Source of the DNA: a virus
IMG/VR virus record: IMGVR_UViG_3300032308_001717
Location: 1 to 43,697 of that record
Strand: one strand, 5' to 3'
Length of the DNA stretch: 43,697 nt
Shown: piece by piece, positions 7,818-26,587 of the stretch
How the letters are laid out: each line of letters starts with the position of its first letter
How positions within the stretch are numbered: the stretch's first letter is position 1
The notes under the pieces: model-generated
Seen by the model: only the letters and a program-made list of their open reading frames with translations
Told to the model about the DNA's origin: nothing
Databases searched by the model: none
Position numbers and translations under genes: made by a program

Positions 7818-8633
7818 ATGTCTAATTTTAGGTCGATAGTCATTAAGTGCAAAGGGGCCGGCACCCTCGCCCTGGACGCGATCACTCCCCTGCAGGGTCG
7901 TTTTAAAATACTCACCGACGACAACAGGAAACGCCTATGTCGAGAGATCATGGTCGACGGGTACCTAGAGCCGATTTCCGTATGGGAGGACGCCACCTCG
8001 GCGAAAATCTACATTCTTAACGGACACCAGCGGCGCGAGGCTCTGCTGTGGCTGAGGGATCATGGGTGGACTGACGATGATGGTGTGCACTGGAACGTAA
8101 AGATACCCCAGCTGCCGGTAAACTATGTCGACGCAAAGGACCTGGCCGAGGCGAAGCGCAACGTACTGGCTCTCGCTAGTCAGTATGGATCGGTCAGCAC
8201 TCAGGGCCTACGCTCCCTAGTCGAGGAGCTCGGGATCACCCACGAGGACCTCGCCAGCCAGTTCAATTTTCCGGAGATCGATATAGCCGCCCTCATGTCG
8301 GGTCTAGAGGTGCCGGCCATGATCGGTATGGACTTTGAGACGAATCCGCGGCTCACCGACCGCGACATCACGACCATCGGCCCTACGACTGTAAAGAACA
8401 CCACTCCCCAGGAGATGCCGGCGCTAAACACTGGAGACCGCGAGCCGTACCAGCAGAAAGCGTTTCACTTGCACGACGAGCAGGTGGCCATAGTGGACGA
8501 AGCGATGGCACTCGCCATAGAGCTGTTCGGCGCAGAGGCGACCGACTCGGATCTCACTGAAAACAAAAACTCGAACACGCTGGCTTTCATCTGCCAGAAA
8601 TTTATTGACGAGAACTCGGGCGATGAAAGCTAA
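7818..8633 (+). CDS. ParB/Srx-fold protein linked to Mom
   Basis: 271 residues. Residues 18-110 show the ParB N-terminal (ParB/sulfiredoxin) fold: ITPLQGRFK, a LTDDNRKRLCREIMVDGYLEPISVW stretch, and the signature GHQRREAL at 69-76. The C-terminal half is unassigned. There is no ParA partner, so chromosome-type partition is unlikely. Phage ParB-like domains often sit beside DNA-modification genes and may act as nucleotide-dependent DNA-binding or nuclease modules. It overlaps the Mom-like gene by 11 bp and is probably co-translated with it. GAGGCGG lies upstream of the ATG. Confidence 0.75.
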   Translation: MSNFRSIVIKCKGAGTLALDAITPLQGRFKILTDDNRKRLCREIMVDGYLEPISVWEDATSAKIYILNGHQRREALLWLRDHGWTDDDGVHWNVKIPQLPVNYVDAKDLAEAKRNVLALASQYGSVSTQGLRSLVEELGITHEDLASQFNFPEIDIAALMSGLEVPAMIGMDFETNPRLTDRDITTIGPTTVKNTTPQEMPALNTGDREPYQQKAFHLHDEQVAIVDEAMALAIELFGAEATDSDLTENKNSNTLAFICQKFIDENSGDES

Positions 8634-9429
8634 AGACATGCAGGTGCGGATCATCGGCAGGCCCGATGCCGTCGCCTTCATAAAGAAATGGCACTACTCC
8701 GGCAAAGTGGATCCGCGCTCACAACTCCATTTCGGCGTTTTCTTCGAGGATAAACTGTACGGGGTACTGCAGTACGGCCCGAGTGTGGACAAGCGCAAGA
8801 TGCTGCCCCTGCTCCCGGGCATGGGGTGGAACGATTTCCTAGAGCTCAATCGGCTGGCACTCCACCCATCGGCACCGAAAAACAGTGAGAGCCGGGCCAT
8901 CGGGATCACTCTCCGGATGATCCGCAAGGCCTACCCAAACATGAAGATGATCATCAGCTTTGCAGACGGGACTCAGTGTGGCGACGGTACGATCTACCGC
9001 GCCGCTGGCTTCCACCTGACTCAAATCAAAAAGAACACATCGATGATCCAGATGGCCAACGGAGATGTCCACTGCAAGCTGGTGTTCACGCTCCACTCGT
9101 CAGGAGGTCTGCAGCGTCGACTCGGCAAGTCGCCAGGCGAGTCGCTAAAAGCGTTTATGGATCGGGTGGGGGCGAAGGCGATACCAGGGTTCCAGCTCAG
9201 GTACATCAAAATCCTGGACCCTGCGTGGGAGGATCGGCGCGGCTTTCAGGTCCTGCCGTATTCTGAGATAGACCGGGTGGGAGCTGGTATGTATCTTGGA
9301 AAGCAGAGACATCGCGCGCCGGAAGCAGAAGCCTCAATGCGCCCCGCTTCCAGTGGGGAGATAGGCGGTTCGAGTCCGACCCCGGCGCTCCACCTACCTC
9401 AGGCAGGTGAGGACATCATCAATAAGTAG
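8623..9429 (+). CDS. mom-like: Mom-like DNA adenine modification enzyme (GNAT fold)
   Basis: 268 residues. The body (1-228) resembles phage Mu Mom and its many phage relatives: KKWHYSG (21-27), FGVFFEDKLYGVLQYG, ELNRLAL (74-80), ISFADGTQCGDGTIYRAAGF (111-130), and a closing LPYSEIDRVGAGMYLG. Mom converts adenine in phage DNA to an N6-acetamido form that blocks host restriction; the donor has long been unclear. ATG 8623 is chosen over 8605 because of its coupling overlap with the ParB-like gene. From codon 232 the frame runs through a tRNA-Gly-like element, and these last residues (Pro, Ala, Ser, Gly-rich) look like read-through of the RNA gene rather than a protein fold. Confidence 0.8.
   Translation: MKAKDMQVRIIGRPDAVAFIKKWHYSGKVDPRSQLHFGVFFEDKLYGVLQYGPSVDKRKMLPLLPGMGWNDFLELNRLALHPSAPKNSESRAIGITLRMIRKAYPNMKMIISFADGTQCGDGTIYRAAGFHLTQIKKNTSMIQMANGDVHCKLVFTLHSSGGLQRRLGKSPGESLKAFMDRVGAKAIPGFQLRYIKILDPAWEDRRGFQVLPYSEIDRVGAGMYLGKQRHRAPEAEASMRPASSGEIGGSSPTPALHLPQAGEDIINK
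9316..9392 (+). tRNA. tRNA-Gly(UCC)-like element inside the 3' end of the mom-like gene
   Basis: 77 nt fold as a complete tRNA. The acceptor stem is GCGCCGG (9316-9322) with CCGGCGC (9382-9388), perfect. A 3-bp D stem GCA/TGC (9325-9327, 9338-9340) follows. The anticodon stem is CCCCG/TGGGG with loop CTTCCAG (9347-9353), giving anticodon TCC. The T arm is GGCGG (9364-9368), loop TTCGAGT, CCG then CC with one bulged A (9379). T73 and an encoded CCA (9390-9392) complete it. Glycine identity elements known from E. coli (G1-C72, C2-G71, G3-C70, U73, C35, C36) are all present. Odd features are A instead of U8, no G18-G19 in the D loop (C-T instead), and the T-stem bulge. It may be a charged but non-translational tRNA, or a decayed one. 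Confidence 0.75.
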
Positions 9430-24456: not shown

Positions 24457-24737
24457 TGATCGTAGGCGTAGCGTTTTACAACCCGGAGACTCAAATGCTG
24501 GTCACGATGCCAAAGCCAAATCGACATAGCGACATCATCGGAAACCTCCATGCAATATCTGGTAAGCAGGTCGGCTCTCCGTGGAAACAGGGCTTCGTGA
24601 CGGACCAGGGTGAGTTTTTGAATCGGAACGAAGCTGCGCGCTATGTCGTCCGTGTAGGTCAAACGCTTACCCAGTACGCCCGTGACGAGTATATGACCCG
24701 GACTCTGACAACCCTGTACAGTGAGGACCTCTGGTGA
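24456..24737 (+). CDS. Hypothetical protein (93 aa)
   Basis: 93 residues (MIVGVAFYNPETQMLVTMPKPNRHSD...), reminiscent of small phage proteins with a 'GFVTDQGEFLNRNEAARYV' stretch seen in uncharacterised NUDIX-adjacent or capsid-neighbour families, but not assignable. Stop/start overlap on both sides. Confidence 0.5.
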   Translation: MIVGVAFYNPETQMLVTMPKPNRHSDIIGNLHAISGKQVGSPWKQGFVTDQGEFLNRNEAARYVVRVGQTLTQYARDEYMTRTLTTLYSEDLW

Positions 24738-25507
24738 AGCGCCCAGTGCTTAGATATTTCGGTGGCAAGTATCTGCTGGCTCCGTGGATCGTGAGTCACT
24801 TCCCCGCGCATCGCGTGTATGTCGAGCCTTTCGCTGGAGCGGCATCGGTCCTCATGCGCAAAGAGCGGTCCAAAGTAGAGGTCTGGAATGACCTTGATGA
24901 TTCGGTGTATCATCTTTTCAAACTGCTGCGTGACGGTCGGGGCCCAGAGCTGGAGCAGGCCCTCCGGCTCACGCCCTACAGCCGCAGAGAGTTCGAGCTG
25001 TCCGGCTCGCCACATCCTGACCCACTAGAGAGTGCCCGTCGCCTCATAATCAGATCATTCATGGGGTTCGGTGGGGATGCTGTCGGCAGCGCGAGCACCG
25101 GCTTTAGGTCGTGCTCGAATCAGTCGAACCGTGCGCCGGCCCTAGACTGGATCAACTACCCAGCCGCGATTCAGGGGTTTATCGGCAGGCTGCAGGGGGT
25201 CGTCATCGAGAACAAAAATGCGTTCGAGGTGATGTGGCAGCACGACTCTGACACCACGCTTCACTATGTGGATCCGCCGTACCACCCGGAGGCGCGCTCG
25301 AAGCGCCAGCGGTACAAGCACGAGATGTTCGACCACGACGAGCTGCTGGCGAAACTGCCGGCCCTCAAGGGGAAGGTGATCCTCAGCGGGTACCACTGCC
25401 CGACGTACGATCGATGGGCCGAGCATCATGGTTGGAGATCCGTGGAGCGTTCTGCCCGAGCTGATGGCGCGAAGAAAACCACCGAGGTCCTATGGATGAA
25501 CTTTTAG
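24734..25507 (+). CDS. D12-class N6-adenine DNA methyltransferase
   Basis: 257 residues from a GTG overlapping the previous TGA. FGGK (9-12), EPFAGAASV (31-39) and DPPY (180-183) are the SAM-binding and catalytic motifs of Dam-type D12 methylases in canonical order. The product would methylate adenine, perhaps in GATC, as protection from host restriction or to regulate transcription. Specificity cannot be read from sequence. Confidence 0.9.
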   Translation: MKRPVLRYFGGKYLLAPWIVSHFPAHRVYVEPFAGAASVLMRKERSKVEVWNDLDDSVYHLFKLLRDGRGPELEQALRLTPYSRREFELSGSPHPDPLESARRLIIRSFMGFGGDAVGSASTGFRSCSNQSNRAPALDWINYPAAIQGFIGRLQGVVIENKNAFEVMWQHDSDTTLHYVDPPYHPEARSKRQRYKHEMFDHDELLAKLPALKGKVILSGYHCPTYDRWAEHHGWRSVERSARADGAKKTTEVLWMNF

Positions 25508-25830
25508 GGGATAAATTATGCGATAGATGCGGTTCCATGATGACCCGTAAGAGGTACGGGAAGCGCCTAGAAGATGCTGGAGTTTTCAGAAAGCGTCGCT
25601 TCTGTTCTCTGTCGTGTGCGAACAAACGTGGGAACTGGGGAAGCTCGAGCGCGGCGAGGCATAGGGCGTCTCAAAAATTTCGCAGGGATTACTGTGAAGA
25701 ATGTGGGCAGAAGGATCACCTGCACGTTCACCACGTCGACGAGAACCATCACAATAATGACCCGAGCAACTTAAAAACCCTATGTCCACGATGCCACAAA
25801 CTAGCTCACATGGAGGTGCGCAATGCATGA
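25492..25830 (+). CDS. HNH endonuclease with zinc sites
   Basis: 112 residues. N-terminal CDRCG and CSLSCANKRG form one zinc site. DYCEECG, HVHHVDENHHNND, and LCPRCHKLAH form the HNH core with its own zinc pairs. It overlaps the methylase by 16 bp. HNH proteins near terL often assist cos-type packaging or are homing nucleases; its colocation with a methylase could also mimic a restriction pair. Confidence 0.82.
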   Translation: MDELLGDKLCDRCGSMMTRKRYGKRLEDAGVFRKRRFCSLSCANKRGNWGSSSAARHRASQKFRRDYCEECGQKDHLHVHHVDENHHNNDPSNLKTLCPRCHKLAHMEVRNA

Positions 25831-26587
25831 GTCAGAGGTGGACACATATCCAAGGTGGCCACGTCAGGGGCAGGTCATCGGGTGGTGGTCTGCCGGAGTG
25901 ACGTCTGCCGTGGCGATCAAGATGGCGCTCGACTCCGGGCTGCGAGTGGTACCTATCTATTTCGATACCGGATCATCTCACCCCGACAACGCGAGGTTTC
26001 TGGCCGACTGCGAGCGATGGTACGGTACCCAGATCATAACTTTTAAGCACCCCAGATATACCGACGTCATGGACGTAGTACGCAAAGAGCGATACCTCAA
26101 CGGGCCCAGCGGAGCCAAATGCACTGGAGTCCTGAAAAAAGAGGTCCGGCAGGCCATAGAGCGGTGGATGCCATACGACGCGCAGATATTTGGGTTTGAG
26201 TTTGAAAAGAAGGAGATGGCCCGGGCTGTCCGATTCGTGGAGCAGTACCCGACGGCTAAGGCGACGTTCCCGCTGATCGACCGCCAGCTCACGAAGGCAA
26301 ACTGCCTCTATCTCCTGGAGTCCGCTGGCATCGCAAAACCAGCCATGTACACGCAGGGCTACCACAACAACAACTGCATCGGATGCGTCAAAGGTGGGAT
26401 GGGGTACTGGAATAAAATCAGAGTCGACTACCCGGCAGTCTTCGATGAGATGGCGAAGGCGGAGCGGGACATCGGCCACAGCTGTATCAAAGGAGTGTAC
26501 CTCGATACTCTCGAATCTGACCGTGGGCACTACCCGACAGAGATTACTCCCGAGTGTGGAGTTTTCTGCCCGGTGGAGGAGCCATAG
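25823..26587 (+). CDS. PAPS-reductase-family protein
   Basis: 254 residues. The PP-loop is WSAGVTSAV (22-30, SxGxxS form). A GAKCTGVLKKEV stretch, NNNCIGCVKGGMGYW and a C-terminal VFCPVEEP provide a four-Cys set as in iron-sulfur PAPS/APS reductase relatives. Phage members of this family are common and are linked to sulfur transfer or nucleotide thiolation rather than assimilation. It sits between HNH and terL, near methylase and ParB/Mom genes, so a DNA modification role is possible but unproved. Confidence 0.75.
   Translation: MHESEVDTYPRWPRQGQVIGWWSAGVTSAVAIKMALDSGLRVVPIYFDTGSSHPDNARFLADCERWYGTQIITFKHPRYTDVMDVVRKERYLNGPSGAKCTGVLKKEVRQAIERWMPYDAQIFGFEFEKKEMARAVRFVEQYPTAKATFPLIDRQLTKANCLYLLESAGIAKPAMYTQGYHNNNCIGCVKGGMGYWNKIRVDYPAVFDEMAKAERDIGHSCIKGVYLDTLESDRGHYPTEITPECGVFCPVEEP

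Follow-up and report, generated by a model that had tools for sequence, protein, structure and literature searches.

The modified base of phage Mu is said to have been identified by Swinton in 1983 as N6-(carbamoylmethyl)adenine, a glycinamide. To our knowledge, the donor used by Mom has been unclear ever since the Mu modification was described. Glycine is also found on a phage DNA base in Synechococcus phage S-B43, as the 5cxmC-glycine amide hypermodification. There, in the CmoX/CmoY system, free glycine and carboxymethylcytosine are joined by an ATP-dependent ligase and no tRNA is involved (PMC12783734). In Staphylococcus aureus, non-proteinogenic tRNA-Gly species in which G18-G19 is replaced, and in which the T stem weakens EF-Tu binding, feed the cell wall (PMC4052509). 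No paper in the open literature was found to join Mom with a tRNA or with glycyl-tRNA (preprints and most subscription papers lay outside the search). As far as could be found, tRNA-borne glycine as a route to viral DNA modification has not been described before.

Here we analysed a viral DNA of 43,697 nt (IMG/VR record IMGVR_UViG_3300032308_001717, the whole stretch being referred to below as the window), in which a tRNA-Gly(UCC)-like element overlaps the 3′ end of a mom gene. The window Mom is of the same family (PF25680; sequence E = 8e-19) and fold as Mu Mom, and S124, the position changed in the inactive Mu Mom mutant, belongs to a QSFAD motif for which the window protein has SFAD in the alignment. 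The loci differ in that no tRNA-like element is present in Mu or its close kin, and in that Com lies upstream in Mu whereas a ParB-like gene precedes the window mom. With the S. aureus tRNA-Gly that supplies FemXAB, the element has in common the UCC type, the absence of G18-G19 and an altered T stem; those tRNAs are considered to evade EF-Tu and supply a transferase (PMC4052509), as we propose below for the element. However, the acceptor is peptidoglycan there and, by our proposal, DNA here, and the partner is a Fem transferase there and here mom, whose product belongs to a different GNAT-fold family. The T-stem A bulge and the loss of the D arm, the latter seen in short forms of the mom element, have not been described in S. 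aureus. The element is clearly derived from canonical tRNA-Gly (RF00005), with which it shares the cloverleaf, CCA, the UCC anticodon and the glycine identity set. It departs from it in scoring below the cut-off, in being missed by ARAGORN, in its bulged T stem, in the drift of U8, U33, D loop and T loop, and in its linkage to mom.

The mom gene and tRNA-like element of the window

The PF25680 family model matched the window Mom over its full length (profile positions 2-201 of 202) with 163.5 bits against a cut-off of 27.1 (E = 7e-48). The last residue of the domain, 214, corresponds to nt 9264, upstream of the element. The predicted structure (pLDDT 92.7) had as its best PDB match Mu Mom S124A (8bv8; Foldseek E 6e-19, Z 22.8, rmsd 3.9, 200 residues), and the matches ranked below it were GNAT acetyltransferases. 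FemX-type enzymes were absent among the PDB matches listed, which proves nothing. A CoA-loop pattern (Q/RxxGxG/A) was matched by 9 of 158 Mom proteins, through a later SRAIGIA, most having a PRNSES-like beta4-alpha3 turn; this test is soft and is not taken as proof.

The full element reads GCGCCGG AA GCAG AAGCCTCA ATGC G CCCCG CTTCCAG TGGGG AGATA GGCGG TTCGAGT CCGACC CCGGCGC T CCA. It forms a cloverleaf with a 7-bp acceptor stem, a reduced D arm, an anticodon arm and a bulged T arm, followed by U73 and CCA (Table 1). All 7 acceptor pairs (GCGCCGG/CCGGCGC) are perfect, with T73 and the encoded CCA directly after them. The anticodon stem CCCCG/TGGGG closes a loop, CTTCCAG, that holds the anticodon TCC and retains U33, and the T arm (GGCGG TTCGAGT CCG-A-CC) contains a single bulged A. 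A occupies position 8, and GG is lacking from the D loop, AAGCCTCA. Every detail of the 77-nt cloverleaf described by a sequence-only reading of this DNA (7-bp acceptor, T73, CCA, TTCGA T loop, anticodon TCC) could be verified, as could the absence of U8 and G18-G19. Thus U8, G18-G19 and an unbulged 5-bp T stem are all missing, and of the translational marks tested only U33 is there. The complete bacterial glycine identity set (U73, G1-C72, C2-G71, G3-C70, C35, C36) is present, again as had been claimed.

Table 1. Coordinates of features at the mom locus of the window.
Feature	Position	Strand	Evidence
ParB-like gene	7818..8633	+	directly upstream of mom, overlapping; similar gene before mom in 155/158 loci
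mom (Mom, PF25680/phrog_1384)	8623..9429	+	conserved domain 8638-9264; ORF reads through element
tRNA-Gly(UCC)-like element	9316..9392	+	sequence; Rfam tRNA 25.6 bits; family model R1 76.9 bits, E 1e-14
acceptor stem 5′ strand GCGCCGG (G1, C2, G3 = glycine identity)	9316..9322	+	G1-C72, C2-G71 invariant, 54/54 pattern-free unique copies
reduced D arm (GCA/TGC), loop without G18-G19; A at position 8	9325..9340	+	sequence; helix covaries in family
anticodon arm CCCCG-CTTCCAG-TGGGG; anticodon TCC 9349-9351	9342..9358	+	C35-C36 in 50/50 parseable unique copies
T arm GGCGG-TTCGAGT-CCGACC, bulged A 9379	9364..9381	+	bulged A 54/54 in A3, 41/58 in A7
acceptor 3′ strand CCGGCGC, U73 9389, encoded CCA 9390-9392	9382..9392	+	U73 53/54, CCA 46/54 in A3

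Detection and covariation of the element

ARAGORN called no tRNA gene on the window element, and the score of the Rfam tRNA model (RF00005) lies under its cut-off of 29. Because both the search at the Rfam cut-off and ARAGORN were negative, these annotation tools are blind to the element family, a few copies of which do get called by ARAGORN. BLASTN of the window locus against phages gave no match, and BLAST with a probe similar to an idealised element retrieved, among the matches listed, only ordinary phage tRNAs. Folded as a single sequence, the window copy had no more than a small advantage over shuffles (z -2.05). By itself it would therefore prove little, and it is the comparison across relatives that supplies the proof. 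A family covariance model (R1), built from an alignment of 48 copies (A2), recognised the window element with high significance (Table 1), the window copy being itself a seed member (L001). Unrelated stretches from 85 mom loci gave zero matches to the model at E<=0.1.

Covariation was assessed in two sets of unique copies, A3 (54) and A7 (58), which were picked via mom and not via the element and are in this sense pattern-free. Standard pairs made up 96.4% of pair cells in A3 and 95.8% in A7. Changes on both sides were seen at 18 of 21 pairs in A3 and again in A7, and the observed covariation score was reached by 0 of 500 shuffles. In controls with a slid structure the paired cells fell to 31-44%. 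These alignments lean towards the model because they were fitted to it; however, the MAFFT alignment A2, which was not model-fitted, agrees (86.6% paired against 38-50% when slid). Covariation and conservation among mom homologues, which the sequence-only reading had proposed to look for with a covariance model, are thus very clearly present, with stems that covary and an element that is family-wide. On this comparative evidence from sequences, the cloverleaf at 9316-9392 is confirmed as real and conserved.

Linkage of the element to mom in phages and bacteria

When three Mom proteins served as query in a profile-like search, IMG/VR yielded 538 relatives, of which the best 80 were kept; an earlier protein scan of IMG/VR with over-strict peptide patterns had returned zero, and it was the alignment query that retrieved them. 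R1 found the element in all of these best 80 of 538, at the mom 3′ end and on the same strand, and nothing more at E<=0.1 in 605 kb. A DNA pattern blind to mom (T arm plus acceptor end) identified 120 viral copies. Of these, 117 had a same-strand mom close by, and the remaining 3 sit at contig ends, where the mom side is truncated. On whole phage records, R1 matched the exact 3′ end of the mom of Arthrobacter phage BarretLemon, which is only about 25% identical, and the element was present at the end of mom in 75 of 80 IMG/VR relatives of that gene. One match among these relatives (L387) was not counted, being on the opposite strand and looking like an ordinary tRNA-Gly. The element is carried beside mom in hundreds of phages, and its tie to mom holds over most of the family.

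The association does not extend to every mom. In the ICP1/RaK2-type clade the element was found in 9 of 80 loci, just upstream of mom, and most of the clade is without it. Among loci with a Mu-type mom, 0 of 56 had the element, one ordinary tRNA-Gly aside, and R1 found none in the phage Mu record. Matches of R1 in L324 and RaK2 were rejected as ordinary tRNA-Gly, and the stronger of the Synechococcus matches as an ordinary tRNA-Ala. On a tree of 168 Mom proteins, element-bearing members clustered strongly, 12 changes being needed where shuffled labels needed 65. A small element-free Mu group is sister to the group of the window; many forks are weakly supported.

The best cultured relative is Psychrobacter phage vB_PmaS_Y8A, in which mom stops ahead of two tandem elements. 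Their acceptor stems differ yet are fully paired (GCGTGTA/TACACGC and GCGTATA/TATACGC), and both have the UCC anticodon, U73, CCA and the same T-stem bulge as the window copy. The paper on Y8A reports no tRNA genes (PMC10434257). Y8A has a second annotated mom (L206 394-1158; OQ059336 39393-40157), far from the first, and both tRNA-like elements are beside the first only. Tandem pairs after a single mom were also seen at L028 (1391-1459 and 1467-1534), L223 (1499-1567 and 1574-1642) and L002 (6653-6720 and 6725-6793), the acceptor stems differing within the pairs of L028 and of L002.

Bacterial genomes contained 50 copies of the element, 34 of which share a contig with mom, mostly less than 100 nt apart. 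Solitary, well-paired copies with no mom in the available stretch were seen in MAGs of acidophile Bacillota (L214 6492-6567, L218 7142-7217, L241 4003-4078, L245 86-161 and L256 193-268, with further mom-free copies in L217, L227, L242, L246 and L255). Those of L217, L242 and L245 lie close to the end of the available stretch, and two MAGs with solitary copies also have a mom-adjacent copy (L243, L244). A mom on a Bradyrhizobium plasmid (L003 6004-6849) nests among the element-bearing Mom proteins; inspection by eye reveals, over its 3′ end, a decayed element (GCGTGGC ... GCCACGC TCCG) that the model does not find. Immediately upstream of the mom of Pseudomonas phage PAN70, a match to the NiCo riboswitch (L005 3714-3800, minus strand) scored 29.3 bits, under the cut-off of 37, and is probably due to chance.

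The RNA rather than a peptide is conserved

The 158 loci (near-copies counted) fall into three groups: in 137 the mom ORF spans the whole element, in 12 its stop lies within the element, and in 9 it ends ahead of the element. Where mom overlaps the element, all three reading frames are used (80, 46 and 23 loci, near-copies counted), and therefore it is the RNA, not a peptide, that is conserved. A conserved 'GGSxPTxAL' peptide tail was rejected for the same reason. The sequence-only reading had described the element as built into the mom gene. In the window the element does occupy part of the last 38 codons of the ORF (stop included). It is not built in in the strict sense, however: it follows the conserved domain, and in the wider family it is found beyond the mom stop in some phages and immediately ahead of mom in others.

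Glycine identity and translational features

The bacterial glycine identity set consists of U73, G1-C72, C2-G71, G3-C70, C35 and C36 (PMC9976931), and the positions kept in the element coincide with it. In A3, both G1-C72 and C2-G71 were invariant (54/54 each), G3-C70 was present in 47 and U73 in 53 of the 54 copies, C35-C36 was found in all 50 parseable copies, and CCA was encoded in 46 of 54. In contrast, U8 was present in just 10 of 54, U33 in 27 of 50 and a D-loop GG in 17 of 54, and the T loop mostly has TGC in place of TTC. The features that are lost are those for use by the ribosome and EF-Tu and for contacts between the D and T loops. An invariant identity set with drifting translational features is what would be expected of a charged, non-translational tRNA, and the sequence data support this reading. 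By the criteria for a translational tRNA-Gly (Rfam gathering score or ARAGORN call) the window element fails both. The sequence features of a non-proteinogenic tRNA-Gly of the S. aureus type (no G18-G19, altered T stem) are present, weak EF-Tu binding being inferred from them. The bulged T-stem A occurs in all 54 copies of A3 but is missing in 17 of 58 unique copies of A7; therefore the bulge noted in the window copy is the commonest derived mark of the family and not a universal one.

These invariant positions also bear on whether the element acts only in cis, as a tRNA-like structure at which binding of RNase P or GlyRS processes, stabilises or represses the mom mRNA, the RNA being no donor. 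mom is toxic, and in favour of such a role, the ORF passes through the element in most loci (137/158), so that cutting there would destroy the stop codon. However, the element also occurs after the mom stop, as two tandem copies in Y8A, or just 5′ of mom, and a mere processing signal needs no invariant U73, C35-C36 or C2-G71, nor a CCA encoded in most copies. We regard a purely cis-acting role as unlikely.

The descent from tRNA-Gly(UCC), seen in upstream-class copies with near-canonical D arms and in the few copies that ARAGORN calls, could be read as pointing to a degenerate tRNA of the phage, retained for translation or a relic of tRNA-targeted integration. Strong covariation and the invariant identity set speak against decay, U8, U33, G18-G19 and the TTC consensus are not maintained as translation would require, and the constant same-strand neighbour is mom, not an integrase; we find a degenerate tRNA highly improbable. 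An attachment-site remnant was rejected, as covariation is present and the window record has no match to a tyrosine integrase (PF00589), with the proviso that the record may be incomplete.

A proposed glycyl donor for Mom

We consider it likely, with good confidence, that the element is a dedicated, non-translational tRNA-Gly, charged by GlyRS, that serves Mom as glycine donor on phage DNA. The element RNA would be transcribed together with mom and then excised by host tRNA-processing enzymes, both of which are inferred. Since the bacterial set of glycine identity positions is intact, host GlyRS is proposed to charge this RNA with glycine. The bulged T stem, the weakened contacts between D and T loops and the missing U8 would presumably keep the RNA off EF-Tu and the ribosome. 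Mom, a GNAT-fold enzyme, could then use the glycyl-RNA as aminoacyl donor to adenine N6 of phage DNA; TacT-class GNAT toxins are known to act on Gly-tRNA (PMC9177977). The inferred primary product of this transfer, N6-glycyl-adenine, is an isomer of N6-(carbamoylmethyl)adenine, so that attack on C6 by its free amine via a five-membered ring (a Smiles-type shift, likewise hypothetical) would yield the known Mu product.

That the charged RNA is instead a decoy or inhibitor target, directed at host tRNA nucleases or Gly-tRNA-acetylating GNAT toxins and co-inherited with mom in a counter-defence block, draws on the wide distribution of such toxins (PMC9177977) and the frequent clustering of counter-defence genes in phages, but we give it very little credence, as it leaves unexplained the near-exclusive one-to-one coupling to mom across very divergent Mom proteins and the chemical match between glycine and the glycinamide product.

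The donor proposal has difficulties of its own. A donor role for every Mom is contradicted by Mu and its close kin and by most of the ICP1/RaK2-type clade, which are without the element. As Mom of Mu and its close kin is functional nevertheless, the element is not needed by every Mom, and host Gly-tRNA, or another donor, would have to serve in those phages. The solitary, mom-free copies in acidophile Bacillota MAGs remain unexplained, and the absence of the T-stem bulge from part of the family also counts against the proposal. Moreover, excision of the RNA would in most cases sever the mom mRNA upstream of the stop, and therefore one transcript could give either Mom or the tRNA.

If the donor proposal is true, charged tRNA would be a substrate of DNA modification, linking translation to DNA chemistry; we know of no link of such kind elsewhere. 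It would explain the glycinamide nature of the Mu base, and use of host Gly-tRNA by Mu-type Mom would settle the long-open source of the Mu modification. The non-translational tRNAs encoded by phages would gain a new class, one that tRNA finders overlook, and mom plus element would offer a handle with which to find and study DNA hypermodification. With reasonable confidence, we further think that Mom is an aminoacyl-tRNA:DNA transferase with the element as its dedicated donor, in a widespread class of phages and prophages that make their own glycyl-tRNA solely for DNA modification, and that the product would be the first DNA base built from a charged tRNA.

Neighbouring genes

The ParB-like gene is part of a conserved parB-mom-tRNA block, in which it may be a specificity or targeting factor. 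ParB-like (ParB/sulfiredoxin) genes 5′ of mom were also seen at L002 (5388-5999) and L340 (1208-1783). Elsewhere in the window, DNA methyltransferase and PAPS-reductase-like genes lie near each other (24734-25507 and 25823-26587), and a PAPS reductase is likewise encoded close to the mom region of Y8A.
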